Source: a virus. From it: 49,251 nt of DNA. Location of the stretch: IMG/VR virus record IMGVR_UViG_3300037156_000045, positions 1-49,251 of that record. The stretch is one strand, 5' to 3'. The notes under the pieces are model-generated. The model saw nothing but the letters and a program-made list of their open reading frames with translations. It was not told the DNA's origin and made no database searches. Every line of letters starts with the position of its first letter. Position 1 is the stretch's first letter. Below, in pieces: positions 1,920-46,998 of this stretch. The position numbers were made by a program, and so were the translations under genes.

Positions 1920-2300
1920 TTATTCCCCCAAGTAATAATAAATTGCGCCGGATATCCCCTCGAACAGGCAACCCGATACCTGCCCGGCTTCGGATTGTTC
2001 CTGATATTCTGCCCATGTATCGGCGCCCTTTTCGCAAATGTCGCCGGATATCAGCTGAATAAAAAGGGCATTTAATTCGTTATCAGTCCATGCGGCAATT
2101 TCTGCAGCATCCCAACCACCCGACGCACGGGCCCATGCGCGCATTGCATCCAGTTTGTCGGCGTTATCCAACAGGTTAAAATCTGCCTCTTTTGCCGCAT
2201 TCCAGGTAATAGCGCCGGCATTGTCGCCCAGCTCTGCCTTACTGGCTGAGTATGTCGCCGGATCTGCTACGGTGTAAAATTCGGTTATATTGATTTCCAT
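1920..2300 (-). CDS. Conserved-type acidic hypothetical protein (126 aa)
   Basis: ATG at 2300 with GAGGGGAAT as ribosome binding site. The product is acidic and rich in Ala, Trp and Tyr. Its middle segment, around WDAAEIAAWTDNELNALF followed by IQLISGDI, resembles accessory proteins I remember from phages and plasmids of Proteobacteria, but I cannot name the family. It is packed with neighbours 1670-1918 and 2319-2582. A role in early takeover or antidefence would fit the position but is not shown. Confidence 0.7.
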   Translation of the reverse strand: MEINITEFYTVADPATYSASKAELGDNAGAITWNAAKEADFNLLDNADKLDAMRAWARASGGWDAAEIAAWTDNELNALFIQLISGDICEKGADTWAEYQEQSEAGQVSGCLFEGISGAIYYYLGE

Positions 2301-2318
2301 GGTATTCCCCTCAAAAAA

Positions 2319-2582
2319 TTATGACGCGGATCCGAACGGGTAGAACGTGATAAAACAGACTTGGCACATTCCCCGAGGGCGCAATGTGATGCAGTCGCCA
2401 TCATTCTCAACAATGCAGCGCACGCCATTCCAGCCAATTGCCTTTTTAACCCGGCGAATTGCTGCAAGGTCTGAATAATTTTCGCCTTCTTTGCTGGGTG
2501 CAATACCGCGGCGCACCCATGAATAATTTGCTTCACCGCCAAAAGTGTCGGTTACTTCATACTGTATCTGCGTCGTTATCAT
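2319..2582 (-). CDS. Hypothetical protein, plasmid/phage accessory type (87 aa)
   Basis: ATG at 2582 with GAGAGGAA upstream. The N-terminus contains VTDTFGGEANYSWVRRG and the C-terminus RPRGMCQVCFITF with a CxxC pair. This VTDTFGGEANY..W pattern recalls small conserved proteins of proteobacterial plasmids and phages with no assigned function (memory of the pattern, not a search). It sits in the leftward small-gene operon between 1920-2300 and 2602-2757. Confidence 0.72.
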   Translation of the reverse strand: MITTQIQYEVTDTFGGEANYSWVRRGIAPSKEGENYSDLAAIRRVKKAIGWNGVRCIVENDGDCITLRPRGMCQVCFITFYPFGSAS

Positions 2583-2601
2583 TTTAAATTCCTCTCAAAA
2601 T

Positions 2602-2757
2602 TTAATGCACTGTGCATGCGTCAGAACAATCAGGCCGGCCATACATGCCGCGCACCCGTTCGTTTAATTCGCGATATTCCCGGCGGTATTCTGTAGGGGG
2701 TAGGGTTTGGATTCGGTCCATTTCTGCTAGGACTAGCTGCAGGATGTATTGGGACAT
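2602..2757 (-). CDS. Small hypothetical protein (51 aa)
   Basis: The ATG at 2757 directly abuts the TAA of the upstream gene, and GGGGG in the end of that gene serves as ribosome binding site. The product begins MSQYILQLVLAEMDRI, continues with an Arg/Glu-rich middle (EYRREYRELNERVRG), and ends with two Cys. It looks like a small helical protein; function unknown. Confidence 0.6.
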   Translation of the reverse strand: MSQYILQLVLAEMDRIQTLPPTEYRREYRELNERVRGMYGRPDCSDACTVH

Positions 2758-3342
2758 TTAAACCCCCTTCAGCACATAGCATTCAAAAACGACATAAAAT
2801 TGCGAATGTTCAGCAATGCGGAAAATTACACTTTCGGCGCCGGCGGCAATTGCCTTTTTGGTGAATTCTTGCGGATTATCCGTTTGGCCCGCATGAAATC
2901 CGTTTTCGAGATGATCCGCAAACAGCTCGTACCCTTGCGTGATTATGTCTTCAGGTGTTATCCAGTCAGGTACTGCTGACATAATGTAGTGCTCGCCATA
3001 AATTGCGCATTCATCAATCCAGGCACTAATGTCGTCATCTGGCGTGAGTACATAACCGTCGCAATAACGTACCGCGCAAACCCAGTCATAGCTGTTAGGA
3101 CTAGTCCGCCAGGCCTTGTCGTTATCGTAATCGATGTACCATTCATCGGACCATTCTAGAGAATACCCAGCATCTTCGAGGTAATCTTGCACCTCGCGTG
3201 ATATGGGGTTCCAGTCAGCAAAGAGGATGCCCGCTTCTGGATCGTTGTAGCCACGTTCACCGTATGCCGTGCAAGATTCCATGTAGTTATTATCCTGCAG
3301 GTGTTTAATGATAATTGCTGTACGCTTGTCGGTTATATGCAT
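2758..3342 (-). CDS. Acidic Trp/Tyr-rich conserved hypothetical protein (194 aa)
   Basis: ATG at 3342 with AAAGGGAGC upstream. The product is acidic, with many Asp, Trp and Tyr, for example DWNPISREVQDYLEDAGY followed by a DEWYIDYDND stretch. Charge-rich, DNA-mimic-like composition is common among phage and plasmid antirestriction proteins, but no defining motif is visible, so this is only a possibility. It lies in the operon 3344-3820 / 2758-3342 / 2602-2757, which starts from the promoter at 3870-3897. Confidence 0.75.
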   Translation of the reverse strand: MHITDKRTAIIIKHLQDNNYMESCTAYGERGYNDPEAGILFADWNPISREVQDYLEDAGYSLEWSDEWYIDYDNDKAWRTSPNSYDWVCAVRYCDGYVLTPDDDISAWIDECAIYGEHYIMSAVPDWITPEDIITQGYELFADHLENGFHAGQTDNPQEFTKKAIAAGAESVIFRIAEHSQFYVVFECYVLKGV

Positions 3343-3869: not shown

Positions 3870-3897
3870 ATTATATGTATATATCTAACGGTGTCAA
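3870..3897 (-). promoter_or_regulatory. Consensus sigma70 promoter (leftward)
   Basis: Reading leftward, TTGACA (3897-3892), a 16-base spacer and TATAAT (3875-3870): both hexamers are exact consensus. It lies about 50 bases upstream of the gene starting at 3820. A strong constitutive early promoter is inferred. Confidence 0.85.
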
Positions 3898-4961: not shown

Positions 4962-4990
4962 ATAGTATATATCGGCATATAACGTGTCAA
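4962..4990 (-). promoter_or_regulatory. Sigma70-type promoter (leftward)
   Basis: Leftward TTGACA (4990-4985), a 17-base spacer and TACTAT (4967-4962). It serves the operon that begins at 4923. The spacer contains GTTATATGCCGATATA, which also occurs in the other orientation at about 1453-1468; a shared operator is possible but unproven. Confidence 0.8.
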
Positions 4991-9448: not shown

Positions 9449-9478
9449 TTGACAACCCACCAACCCCTAATTTACTAT
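9449..9478 (+). promoter_or_regulatory. Promoter giving a probable leaderless transcript
   Basis: TTGACA (9449-9454), an 18-base spacer and TACTAT (9473-9478). Only 7 bases separate the -10 from the ATG at 9486, so the transcript would start at or next to the start codon, and no Shine-Dalgarno is present. Confidence 0.65.
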
Positions 9479-9485
9479 CCGATCC

Positions 9486-9689
9486 ATGAACAAAGAAAAA
9501 CTCATCGCAGAATTTGGCCACACCGAAGCTGAAATGGCTCGGCAACTCAAAATGTCGCCCCAGCGCGTCAATTTGTGGTGTGACGAGCTGAACAAGCAGC
9601 AGCAGGACGGCGTGCTGTCGGCCCTAGTGCGTAACCAAACGACGCGGCCGGCATTTGTGCCGAAATGGATGTGGGATAGTTTGAAGTAA
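9486..9689 (+). CDS. Cro-like helix-turn-helix regulator (67 aa)
   Basis: A small DNA-binding protein. Residues ~13-32 (EAEMARQLKMSPQRVNLWCD) fit a Cro/YdaS-type helix-turn-helix, in which the second helix, SPQRVNLW, would enter the major groove. Its ATG follows the promoter at 9449-9478 with no room for a ribosome binding site, recalling leaderless repressor mRNAs such as lambda cI from PRM. It may regulate late genes or its own promoter; targets are unknown. Confidence 0.75.
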   Translation: MNKEKLIAEFGHTEAEMARQLKMSPQRVNLWCDELNKQQQDGVLSALVRNQTTRPAFVPKWMWDSLK

Positions 9690-19657: not shown

Positions 19658-20758
19658 ATGAACAAAATTGATCAAAATATGGCCCGTGCCGCGCTGGCAA
19701 TGTATGCGCGTGACCACGGTATCCACTTTGGTGACTCCGTAGTTGGATTCACCGAAGATCGCAGCCTCAAGAGCACAGCGTTCGCAGCCGATGCACAACC
19801 CTCGCTGGTAACCACTCCCAGCTCGGGCATCCCGGCGTTCCTGACCACCCACATCAGCCCGAAGCACATCAAGATCCTGACAGCCAAAAATGCGGCTGCC
19901 GAGATTCTGGGTGAAGAGCGCGTTGGTTCCTTCATCGACACCAACTGGATATTCCCCGTTGTTGAGCATGACGGCCAAGTGTCCGCCTACTGCGATCACA
20001 GCAATGACGGCAATTCCAGCGCCAACATGAACTTCCCTCAACGCCAAAACTTCATCTTTCAAACCATCGGACGTTGGGGCCAGGTCGAGCTGGAACGTGC
20101 CGCGTTGGCCAAGATTGGCTGGGCGGAAGATGTGCGCGGCGCTGCGATTGACGTGTTGCAGAAATTCCTGAATCAGATGCAATTTTTTGGTGTGCAAAAT
20201 TTGGCGTGCTATGGTCTGCTCAATAGCCCAGGCCTGTTCCCCGCGATTGCCCCGGCACCGAAAGCATTCAACAACGGCACTAGCGGCCCGTGGATGACTG
20301 GTTCGGCGATCACTGCAACCTCGTTGGAAATGTACCGTGACATCCTGGCATTAGTTACTCAGGCTATTGTGCAGAGCTCTGGAAATGCAAACGTTCGCAG
20401 CCCAATGAAACTGGTGCTGTCGCCTTCTCGTATGGCCGCAATGCAGAACGCAAACGACTTCAACGTGAACGTGATGACCCTGATCGCCTCCAACTTCCCG
20501 AACATGAAGGTAATGGACGCGGTTCAGTACGGCGCCGTTTCCGCTCAGAACCCACAAGGTTCCGCCGTCGGTGAAATCATGCAGGTTATCGTCACCGAAG
20601 TCATGGGGCAACAAACCGCAACTGCAACATACAGTGAAAAGCTGCGTTCTGGTCCGGTAATTCTTGGTCTCAGCGATTACCAGCAGAAGATGTCGTCCGG
20701 CAGTTTCGGCACAGTCGTCTACCAGCCGTTTGCGATTGCAACAGGCGTAGGCTACTAG
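19658..20758 (+). CDS. Major capsid protein (DUF2184, HK97 fold)
   Basis: Main shell subunit. 366 residues, starting after GGAGAACATA, and matching the DUF2184 capsid pattern: HISPKHIKILTAKNAAAEIL in the N-terminal arm region, then RQNFIFQTIGRWGQVELERA in the middle and GVQNLACYGLLNSPGL, ending GTVVYQPFAIATGVGY. The family is an HK97-type fold. Its gene follows cement and scaffold and is closed by its own terminator (20786-20818), so it can be expressed at high level. Confidence 0.93.
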   Translation: MNKIDQNMARAALAMYARDHGIHFGDSVVGFTEDRSLKSTAFAADAQPSLVTTPSSGIPAFLTTHISPKHIKILTAKNAAAEILGEERVGSFIDTNWIFPVVEHDGQVSAYCDHSNDGNSSANMNFPQRQNFIFQTIGRWGQVELERAALAKIGWAEDVRGAAIDVLQKFLNQMQFFGVQNLACYGLLNSPGLFPAIAPAPKAFNNGTSGPWMTGSAITATSLEMYRDILALVTQAIVQSSGNANVRSPMKLVLSPSRMAAMQNANDFNVNVMTLIASNFPNMKVMDAVQYGAVSAQNPQGSAVGEIMQVIVTEVMGQQTATATYSEKLRSGPVILGLSDYQQKMSSGSFGTVVYQPFAIATGVGY

Positions 20759-20785: not shown

Positions 20786-20818
20786 CCCGTGCCAGCAATG
20801 GCGCGGGTTCTTTAATTT
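20786..20818 (+). terminator. Terminator after major capsid gene
   Basis: Stem CCCGTGCCA/TGGCGCGGG (one G-T pair) closed by a GCAA tetraloop, followed by TTCTTTAATTT. It separates the capsid operon from the small RNA unit. Confidence 0.8.
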
Positions 20819-20858
20819 GCAGTCATGCTCTCAGGTGAGATTCCAAATTAAAGAACGA

Positions 20859-20887
20859 TTGACATACAGCGAGTCACACCGTAATAT
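20859..20887 (+). promoter_or_regulatory. Promoter of the intergenic RNA unit
   Basis: TTGACA (20859-20864), a 17-base spacer and TAATAT (20882-20887). With the terminator at 21151-21176 it defines a transcript of about 280 bases with no gene longer than a few codons. Confidence 0.7.
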
Positions 20888-20923
20888 CCGCACCAGCGCC
20901 ACAACTGCGCTTGTAAATTGCGA

Positions 20924-20953
20924 GACATAAGGAGCGACGACATAAGGAGCGAC
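20924..20953 (+). repeat. Two 15-bp repeats each carrying AAGGAG
   Basis: GACATAAGGAGCGAC occurs twice without a gap (20924-20938, 20939-20953) and GACAT begins a third time. Each copy contains a perfect Shine-Dalgarno core. The second is well spaced from the minigene ATG. Confidence 0.85.
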
Positions 20954-20956
20954 GAC

Positions 20957-20968
20957 ATGCGCAAGTAA
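20957..20968 (+). CDS. Three-codon minigene (Met-Arg-Lys)
   Basis: ATG CGC AAG TAA placed 7 bases after AAGGAG, an efficient-looking initiation site for a tripeptide only. Phage lambda bar minigenes with short frames of this type trap tRNA as peptidyl-tRNA and affect host peptidyl-tRNA hydrolase needs. Whether this one is translated is unknown; the tandem ribosome binding site argues it is not chance. Confidence 0.4.
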   Translation: MRK

Positions 20969-21150
20969 TCTCGGCAGTCTCATTCAGATAGTAATAGGGG
21001 CCAAATAGGCAACAGCGGAAGCCTCCCGCTAGAATATGCCGACATCGTACACACAGAGTTTACAATTTAGGCACACTTTAGGTGCCAGTACATGTGCGGA
21101 GTCTACGGACGCCAAACCGCCGAGAGATGCACTACCTCTCACCAAATCTA

Positions 21151-21176
21151 ACGCCCAGCCAACACTGGGCGTTTTT
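21151..21176 (+). terminator. Terminator of the intergenic RNA unit
   Basis: Perfect 8-bp stem ACGCCCAG/CTGGGCGT, six-base loop CCAACA, then a T run. It closes the small RNA before the gene at 21231. Confidence 0.88.
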
Positions 21177-21230
21177 CATGTGCCCCGCAATTCACCGCGC
21201 GGCGTAACTTAGTCACCAAGGAGAAATAGC

Positions 21231-21776
21231 ATGGCTGAAGGCACACTGGGATTACCGAAAACGTCCTCCGACGAGGACAACATGGCAAAGCTGGTCGCCA
21301 TCACGGAAGGCACCCGCGAAGCGAGTGGCGACACTGTGAGTGTGGCGTGTCGCGTCCCGATGGGCATGATTCTCCGCGCGCACAAGCGCGTGATGATGCC
21401 GCACAAGACCACCGAAGGTATGATTCGTGACGTTCCCGAATACCACCAGGTTGGCAAAGAATACATGGTGTACGGCCCATCGCATCCGCAAAATGCCGGC
21501 CCCCACTGCACGATCATCGGCGACTACGCCATCACGCATGGCATCCCCAAGGAGCTGTGGGATATCTGGTCAGCCCAACATAGAGGCGACATGGTGGTAA
21601 TCAACCGCATGATCTTCGCGTACAACTCGAATAAAATTGCCGGTGCTGCCAAAGAGCACGCCGAACTGAAATCTGGCCTGGAACGTCTCGATTCGAGCCG
21701 CCTGCCAAAAAATCTGGTGCCGAGCCGCGACCACATGAGCGCCGAAGCGTTCAACGCGGTATCTGCTGGTAAATAA
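21231..21776 (+). CDS. Conserved phage protein of head-neck region (181 aa)
   Basis: ATG at 21231 after AAGGAGAAA. It has a conserved-looking centre: CRVPMGMILRAHKRV, then SHPQNAGPHCTIIGDYAITHG and IPKELWDIW, ending in a basic tail. Proteins of this design stand near head completion genes in related phages, but I cannot name the family or role. It is the first gene after the small RNA unit and leads into the neck operon. Confidence 0.75.
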   Translation: MAEGTLGLPKTSSDEDNMAKLVAITEGTREASGDTVSVACRVPMGMILRAHKRVMMPHKTTEGMIRDVPEYHQVGKEYMVYGPSHPQNAGPHCTIIGDYAITHGIPKELWDIWSAQHRGDMVVINRMIFAYNSNKIAGAAKEHAELKSGLERLDSSRLPKNLVPSRDHMSAEAFNAVSAGK

Positions 21777-26824: not shown

Positions 26825-26950
26825 ATGCCGCACGAGATATATGGTTGGATATTCCTGACGGTAATTGTCGGTGCAGGCCTGTTCGGGGCGTATCACCTGT
26901 TCCAAATGATTCGCATAGCGCACAGTATCAAACCACCACACCAGCCGTAA
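26825..26950 (+). CDS. Tiny membrane protein (41 aa)
   Basis: ATG at 26825 after GGGAGAG. The product has a single hydrophobic span (IYGWIFLTVIVGAGLFGAYH) and a short basic tail. It stands between tube and chaperone genes, a common location for small unrelated insertions. No family recognised. Confidence 0.65.
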   Translation: MPHEIYGWIFLTVIVGAGLFGAYHLFQMIRIAHSIKPPHQP

Positions 26951-26978
26951 AAAGGAGCCGTACAGATGGCACGCAAGC
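26942..26978 (+). repeat. Direct repeat, left copy (duplicated gene start)
   Basis: 37 bases running from CAGCCGTAA through AAGGAGCCGTACAG and ATGGCACGCAAGC. The copy at 27339-27374 carries the same sequence with one A fewer and one substitution. Both hold a ribosome binding site, ATG and the codons M-A-R-K. Confidence 0.8.
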
Positions 26979-27338: not shown

Positions 27339-27374
27339 CAGCCGTAAAAGGAGTCGTACAGATGGCACGCAAGC
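27339..27374 (+). repeat. Direct repeat, right copy (true gene start)
   Basis: 36 bases matching 26942-26978, including AAGGAG, GTACAG and ATGGCACGCAAGC, where the ATG is the chaperone start at 27362. Confidence 0.8.
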
Positions 27375-46380: not shown

Positions 46381-46998
46381 TTATCCCTTAATAGGATGTA
46401 ATTCAGCAAAATGCCACTCGATGTAGTTAGCCAATCCGAGATAGCTTTTTTCGTGAAGAGTGCCGCCATGCCTTTTGATTACCGCAGCGCGGAAATCATC
46501 CAGTGAGCCAATGAAGCAACCGCGAGTTACAGTTATTCCTCCATCCTTATTGCGAAATGCGGTAAGCGTGCCAAGTTCGCCGCCTACTTTTGTTATCCAA
46601 AGTAACTGCGCATCGCCGGACACCCGCGCATCGCCGGACACCCGCGCATCGCCGGACACCCGCGCATCGCCGGACACCCGCGCATCGCCGGACACCCGCG
46701 CATTGCCGTACACCAACGCATTGCCGGACACCCGCGCATCGCCGAACACCAACGCATTGCCGTACACCCGCGCATCGCCGTACACCCGCGCATCGCCGGA
46801 CACCCGCGCATCGTCGAACACCAACGCATTGCCGGACACCCACGCATTGCCGGACATATCAATATTGCTTTCTTTTTCAACATAACCGCCTTCATCACCA
46901 GTTTTCACAATTCCAAAGCTAATCAATGCGCGAATGCGAAACAGTTTCACTCCGAAATAATCAATGCTCTTTTCTGCGATAAGTTCAAATTTCTTCAT
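46381..46998 (-). CDS. Hexapeptide-repeat (beta-solenoid) protein (205 aa)
   Basis: ATG at 46998 after AAAGGATA. The N-terminus (KKFELIAEKSIDYFGVKLFR) and VKTGDEGGYVEKESNIDMSG turn are those of a phage family of hexapeptide-repeat proteins; fourteen [SY]G[DN]A[RL]V units follow (residues ~49-132), which should form a left-handed beta-solenoid. A conserved C-terminal region ends ADYIEWHFAELH-like (LANYIEWHFAEL). The family occurs in phages of Gram-negative hosts, function unknown. The 18-bp DNA period equals that of the repeat gene at 1-280. Confidence 0.8.
   Translation of the reverse strand: MKKFELIAEKSIDYFGVKLFRIRALISFGIVKTGDEGGYVEKESNIDMSGNAWVSGNALVFDDARVSGDARVYGDARVYGNALVFGDARVSGNALVYGNARVSGDARVSGDARVSGDARVSGDARVSGDAQLLWITKVGGELGTLTAFRNKDGGITVTRGCFIGSLDDFRAAVIKRHGGTLHEKSYLGLANYIEWHFAELHPIKG
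46605..46856. repeat. Fourteen tandem copies of an 18-bp coding repeat
   Basis: Units related to CACCCGCGCATCGCCGGA, with five nearly identical copies in a row (46621-46710) and diverged ones on the right. Eighteen bases equal six codons of the hexapeptide protein. Uninterrupted, so not CRISPR. Confidence 0.9.

Follow-up and report, generated by a model that had tools for sequence, protein, structure and literature searches.

With phage morons, reportedly described by Juhala and co-workers in 2000, the locus analyzed here shares extra DNA that lies between conserved neighbors, that is, between genes adjacent in relatives, and carries a promoter and a terminator, both predicted from sequence. 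It differs from them in lacking a protein gene, in its position between capsid and neck genes and in its mini-ORF preceded by a Shine-Dalgarno (SD) sequence. RNA genes are found at such sites as well, namely the sRNA genes AgvB and AsxR at moron sites of lambdoid prophages; anti-sRNAs of this type measure 51-60 nt, whereas the RNA predicted here is much longer (PMC4104026). Closer in size is misc_4 of phiR1-37 (296 nt), a phage sRNA of little-known function, and none of the phage sRNAs in the table of the review that covers it is described with a tandem SD or a minigene (PMC12197685). The minigenes of phage lambda, such as barI (AUG AUA UAA), have in common with the present locus an SD followed by an ORF of few codons ending in UAA within a phage genome (PMC8012679). 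The minigene described here differs from these in having three codons and a Lys end, in its dedicated promoter-terminator unit and in not recurring in viral contigs. In leader minigenes such as axe-txe mg2, LEE1 and LEE4, a strong SD with an ORF of 2-6 codons captures ribosomes and shields the RNA or adjusts the expression of the gene that follows (PMC8708949), whereas here a terminator stands between the mini-ORF and the next gene, which are 262 nt apart.

The source record, that of an uncultivated virus, comprises 49,251 bases (the window). Genes for portal, protease, major capsid protein (MCP, phrog_264), sheath, tape-measure and baseplate are present, and the phage is therefore taken to be a myovirus. 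In the MCP it shares about 40% identity with Aeromonas and Pseudomonas phages. From the MCP stop codon (20758) to the next gene (21231) extends a gap of 472 nt, which contains the unit (Table 1). The original prediction had placed a promoter, tandem 15-mers, a minigene and a terminator in this stretch and had described it as free of any normal gene. Each of these elements is indeed present at the position claimed for it, and the ORFs of the gap are devoid of coding signal. As judged from these elements, the locus is a well-formed candidate for a gene-less RNA unit, which would most likely yield a short RNA of ~280 nt.

Table 1. Features of the gap between the capsid and neck genes and of the flanking genes (window coordinates).
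Feature	Position	Strand	Details
Major capsid protein gene (phrog_264), upstream neighbor	19658..20758	+	PHROGs E 1.6e-48
Terminator-like hairpin of capsid transcript	20786..20807	+	9 pairs, 7 GC, U-rich tail
Long hairpin GTTCTTTAATTTG...CAAATTAAAGAAC	20807..20856	+	Inverted repeat, 18-nt arms, 89% complementary; predicted by folding
Sigma70-like promoter TTGACA-N17-TAATAT	20859..20887	+	10/12 match; predicted start about 20894
5'-end hairpin AGCGC...GCGCT of predicted RNA	20895..20911	+	Predicted by folding
Two exact tandem 15-mers GACATAAGGAGCGAC	20924-20938, 20939-20953	+	Each with a 7-nt anti-SD complement
Three-codon mini-ORF ATG CGC AAG TAA (fMet-Arg-Lys)	20957..20968	+	AAGGAG at 7-nt spacing
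Non-coding body	20969..21149	+	No frame scores as coding; without match in PHROGs or Rfam and without meaningful match in DNA
Intrinsic terminator	21150..21176	+	Perfect 9-bp stem 21150-21173, T5 at 21172-21176
Head/neck-region gene (phrog_2085), downstream neighbor	21231..21776	+	Own SD AAGGAG at 21218

The promoter is the only site of the window with no mismatch to TTGACA-N17-TAWWWT, and the motif TAAGGAG is confined, over the 49 kb of the plus strand, to the two copies of the repeat. The T-run of the terminator is only moderate. When the gap was dinucleotide-shuffled 3000 times to provide a null, with the limitation that the features had been chosen post hoc, a terminator stem of at least 8 pairs, a promoter followed by a terminator and a 15-mer repeat were each found in none, while an SD with ATG, one to five codons and a stop arose in 8 (0.3%) and a promoter matching at least 10/12 positions in 95 (3%). 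Across the whole window 11 sigma70-like sites reach at least 10/12, not far above the ~7 extrapolated from the shuffle rate. Tandem repeats of 15 bp are common products of slippage. The G+C content of the unit is 51% as compared to 53% in its neighbors, the unit being too short for its composition to be judged, and a search for further copies elsewhere in the window gave chance matches of 11-12 nt only.

Alignment of the MCP led to 80 loci in viral contigs, 67 of which were examined, five annotated phages among them. In these relatives (~40% MCP identity) the gap after the MCP gene has a median length of 57 nt, so that the 472 nt of the window amount to eight times the median. Only one of the 67 gaps exceeds 150 nt, and it holds annotated small genes. 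A terminator follows the MCP gene in 18 of them by a strict test, and a promoter of at least 10/12 is found in none of the 67 post-MCP gaps. Since these gaps are typically short and free of a comparable promoter, the promoter-bearing block is regarded as an insertion relative to the examined phages.

No close relative was found by searches with the MCP and the neck protein. Two near relatives, L090 and L091, were found by means of the large terminase subunit (TerL); their terminase proteins are 93-99% identical to those of the window over the matched segments, and their contigs do not extend to the locus. Between the genes of the small and large terminase subunits L090 carries a cytosine-methyltransferase-like gene (487-2292) and L091 an unrelated ORF of 235 amino acids (398-1105), while neither insert is present between the terminase genes of the window. 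As these inserts separate otherwise adjacent genes, the lineage evidently accepts insertions of this kind and both acquires and loses them between adjacent conserved genes. In L091, terL itself is interrupted by an in-frame insert of ~370 codons (1937-3049) that ends in ...VVTHN before a Cys and is by its look a putative intein, in contrast to the uninterrupted terL of the window.

Stop-to-stop frames of at least 15 codons within the gap score between -0.53 and +0.05 per codon on the two strands, without coding signal, as compared to +0.08 to +0.36 for the real genes. None of the frames searched, a read-through of the mini-ORF included, matches a protein family in PHROGs or the phage collection, and with neither coding signal nor family match a hidden or broken protein is unsupported. 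At the nucleotide level, Rfam returned nothing above the gathering threshold (best E 9.7), phages and plasmids gave chance matches of 24 nt and 28 nt, respectively, with nothing meaningful in either, and the repeat-minigene core has no DNA match in viral or genome contigs. A type III antitoxin-like arrangement, with repeats preceding a toxin gene, was discarded, since it is a head/neck-region homolog that follows the unit.

Without its terminator the predicted RNA folds like its shuffles (z = -0.29), and with the terminator z is -2.1; the fold signal is thus carried by the terminator, and no structured core is detectable by folding against shuffles. The terminator forms at near-full probability, opening of its arm costs 9.3 kcal/mol, and no alternative pairing that would compete with it is seen in the fold, which speaks against a transcription attenuator. 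Nor is a sponge for CsrA/RsmA indicated, as five GGA motifs compared to 3.0 ± 1.5 in shuffles represent no enrichment. Among possible antisense contacts to the phage's own translation starts, the best duplex, calculated with a crude model, did not surpass chance, as it was reached by 11 of 40 shuffles.

At 20943-20968 the layout of a lambda bar-type minigene is found, with an SD, ATG, a few codons and a stop. Translation of the mini-ORF is plausible, because the 7-nt anti-SD complement lies at a spacing of 7 nt and the modeled opening energy of the SD (3.4 kcal/mol) falls inside the span covered by genuine genes of this phage. Among 2.9 million viral contigs an SD-MRK-stop minigene is matched once, in an unrelated context and at chance level, and the tandem-SD layout four times, likewise in unrelated contexts and at about the rate expected by chance, with the matches in L116 and L117 falling within one and the same gene region. 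As the recurrence of both motifs resembles chance, the tandem repeat is provisionally read as a slippage duplication.

The reading that is tentatively preferred, although its probability is put somewhat below one half, is that of a moron-like insertion, specific to this lineage and devoid of a gene, that makes an RNA of ~283 nt and in which ribosome loading is mostly cis-protective. The insertion would have placed the unit between two genes that are neighbors in relatives, and host sigma70 RNA polymerase would produce a discrete RNA apart from the capsid transcript. The strong SD would recruit ribosomes, which would translate fMet-Arg-Lys and then dissociate. Such loading would most likely act in cis, the ribosome and the 5' hairpin near the RNA 5' end guarding against decay, as suggested by analogy to LEE4 and axe-txe; minigenes behind strong SDs also work in cis, and the mRNA was stabilized in the published cases (PMC8708949). 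Any regulatory work would reside in the ~180-nt body, either in trans or upon read-through into the neck gene. For the additional copy of the SD the 15-bp slippage duplication would be the best explanation, and sequestration of tRNA would represent a possible side effect, not an established function. If the RNA is made, the locus would represent a moron that encodes an RNA in place of a protein, located inside a conserved structural block.

Several other explanations have to be weighed against this preferred reading. The block may be a decayed, empty moron, whose promoter, ribosome-binding site, start codon and terminator were left over from a deleted or scrambled small gene. A moron with a single gene would indeed consist of promoter, SD, ATG and terminator, the frame of the ATG, when read through two stops (TAA and TAG), ends with a TAA at the terminator stem, and gene inserts have been gained elsewhere in the lineage. 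However, two stops in ~63 codons are not much below the random expectation of about three, the codon score of the read-through frame is negative, and its peptide is among those without a match, so that decay appears rather unlikely. Unlikely, too, is a cis-acting leader, in which the neck-tail genes would be transcribed from the promoter and an attenuator composed of mini-ORF and terminator would control passage into 21231. The co-oriented operon directly downstream, the moderate T-run and the known regulation of downstream genes by leader mini-ORFs (PMC8708949) are consistent with it, but ~180 nt separate the end of the mini-ORF from the terminator, antiterminator pairing is not seen and the terminator arm is costly to open, and the neck gene has a good SD of its own. 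Pure chance would mean that the spacer is non-coding, that its terminator is genuine and serves the capsid transcript as a second one, and that promoter and mini-ORF are accidental. It would agree with the frequent post-MCP terminators of the relatives, with the promoter rate in shuffles and with the near-expected number of promoter-like sites in the window. It is considered very improbable in view of the gap length relative to the median of relatives and of the rarity in shuffles of the SD mini-ORF and of the terminator.

The original prediction went further and proposed bar-like depletion of tRNA or titration of ribosomes. Abortive translation of AUG CGC AAG UAA would release fMet-Arg-Lys-tRNA(Lys), drain tRNA(Lys) and slow host translation, with the tandem SD boosting initiation. 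The perfect SD, its 7-nt spacing and the UAA stop fit this proposal, a strong SD and UAA being known to raise minigene toxicity (PMC8708949). The Lys ending would also suit a bar-like effect, as Lys-tRNA is quickly depleted upon loss of Pth in E. coli (PMC10192219). On the other hand, toxicity decreases with length, two codons being most toxic, and one minigene of 'toxic' profile, which acted in cis, did no harm upon overexpression (PMC8708949). Moreover, the SD-MRK minigene has a single match in an unrelated context, and an RNA of ~280 nt is not needed for such an effect. With motifs at chance level, no structured core and published minigenes acting in cis, depletion or titration did not find support; the tRNA-sequestering reading is possible but unsupported and is judged quite improbable. 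A very low probability is given to the reading in which the locus encodes an RNA whose dedicated task is to capture ribosomes or sequester tRNA(Lys) via tandem SD and three-codon minigene. If the minigene does act on tRNA, the lambda bar minigenes would have in it a natural counterpart that stands on its own. What stands of the original prediction is the self-contained unit, in agreement with the sequence statistics and the absence of the insert in relatives, whereas its functional claim has the anatomy alone behind it.

The strongest structure near the unit lies upstream of it and had gone without mention in the original prediction. The double hairpin at 20786-20857, at the 3' end of the capsid mRNA, reaches z = -6.95 when its fold is compared to shuffles. 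The outer stem of the long second hairpin is perfect over 13 bp, and its 3' arm stops two bases 5' of the -35 box of the unit. From the predicted fold, this hairpin adjoining the -35 box could be a processing or stabilizing site.

Further observations concern other parts of the window. Two sigma70 promoter sequences point toward a block of minus-strand genes, a perfect one (12/12) at 3870-3897 (-) and one of 10/12 at 4962-4990 (-), and both are candidate early promoters by sequence. Another promoter-like site, at 9449-9478 (+), is located directly 5' of a small ORF at 9486, and its hexamers are identical in L090. Coding-type tandem repeats of 18 bp form two arrays, at 1-200 and 46554-46910, the latter within a protein with YdcK beta-solenoid repeats. 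Finally, two genes of the tail region have in common a near-identical start region of 29 nt (AAAAGGAG.CGTACAGATGGCACGCAAGC), at 26950-26978 and 27346-27374.
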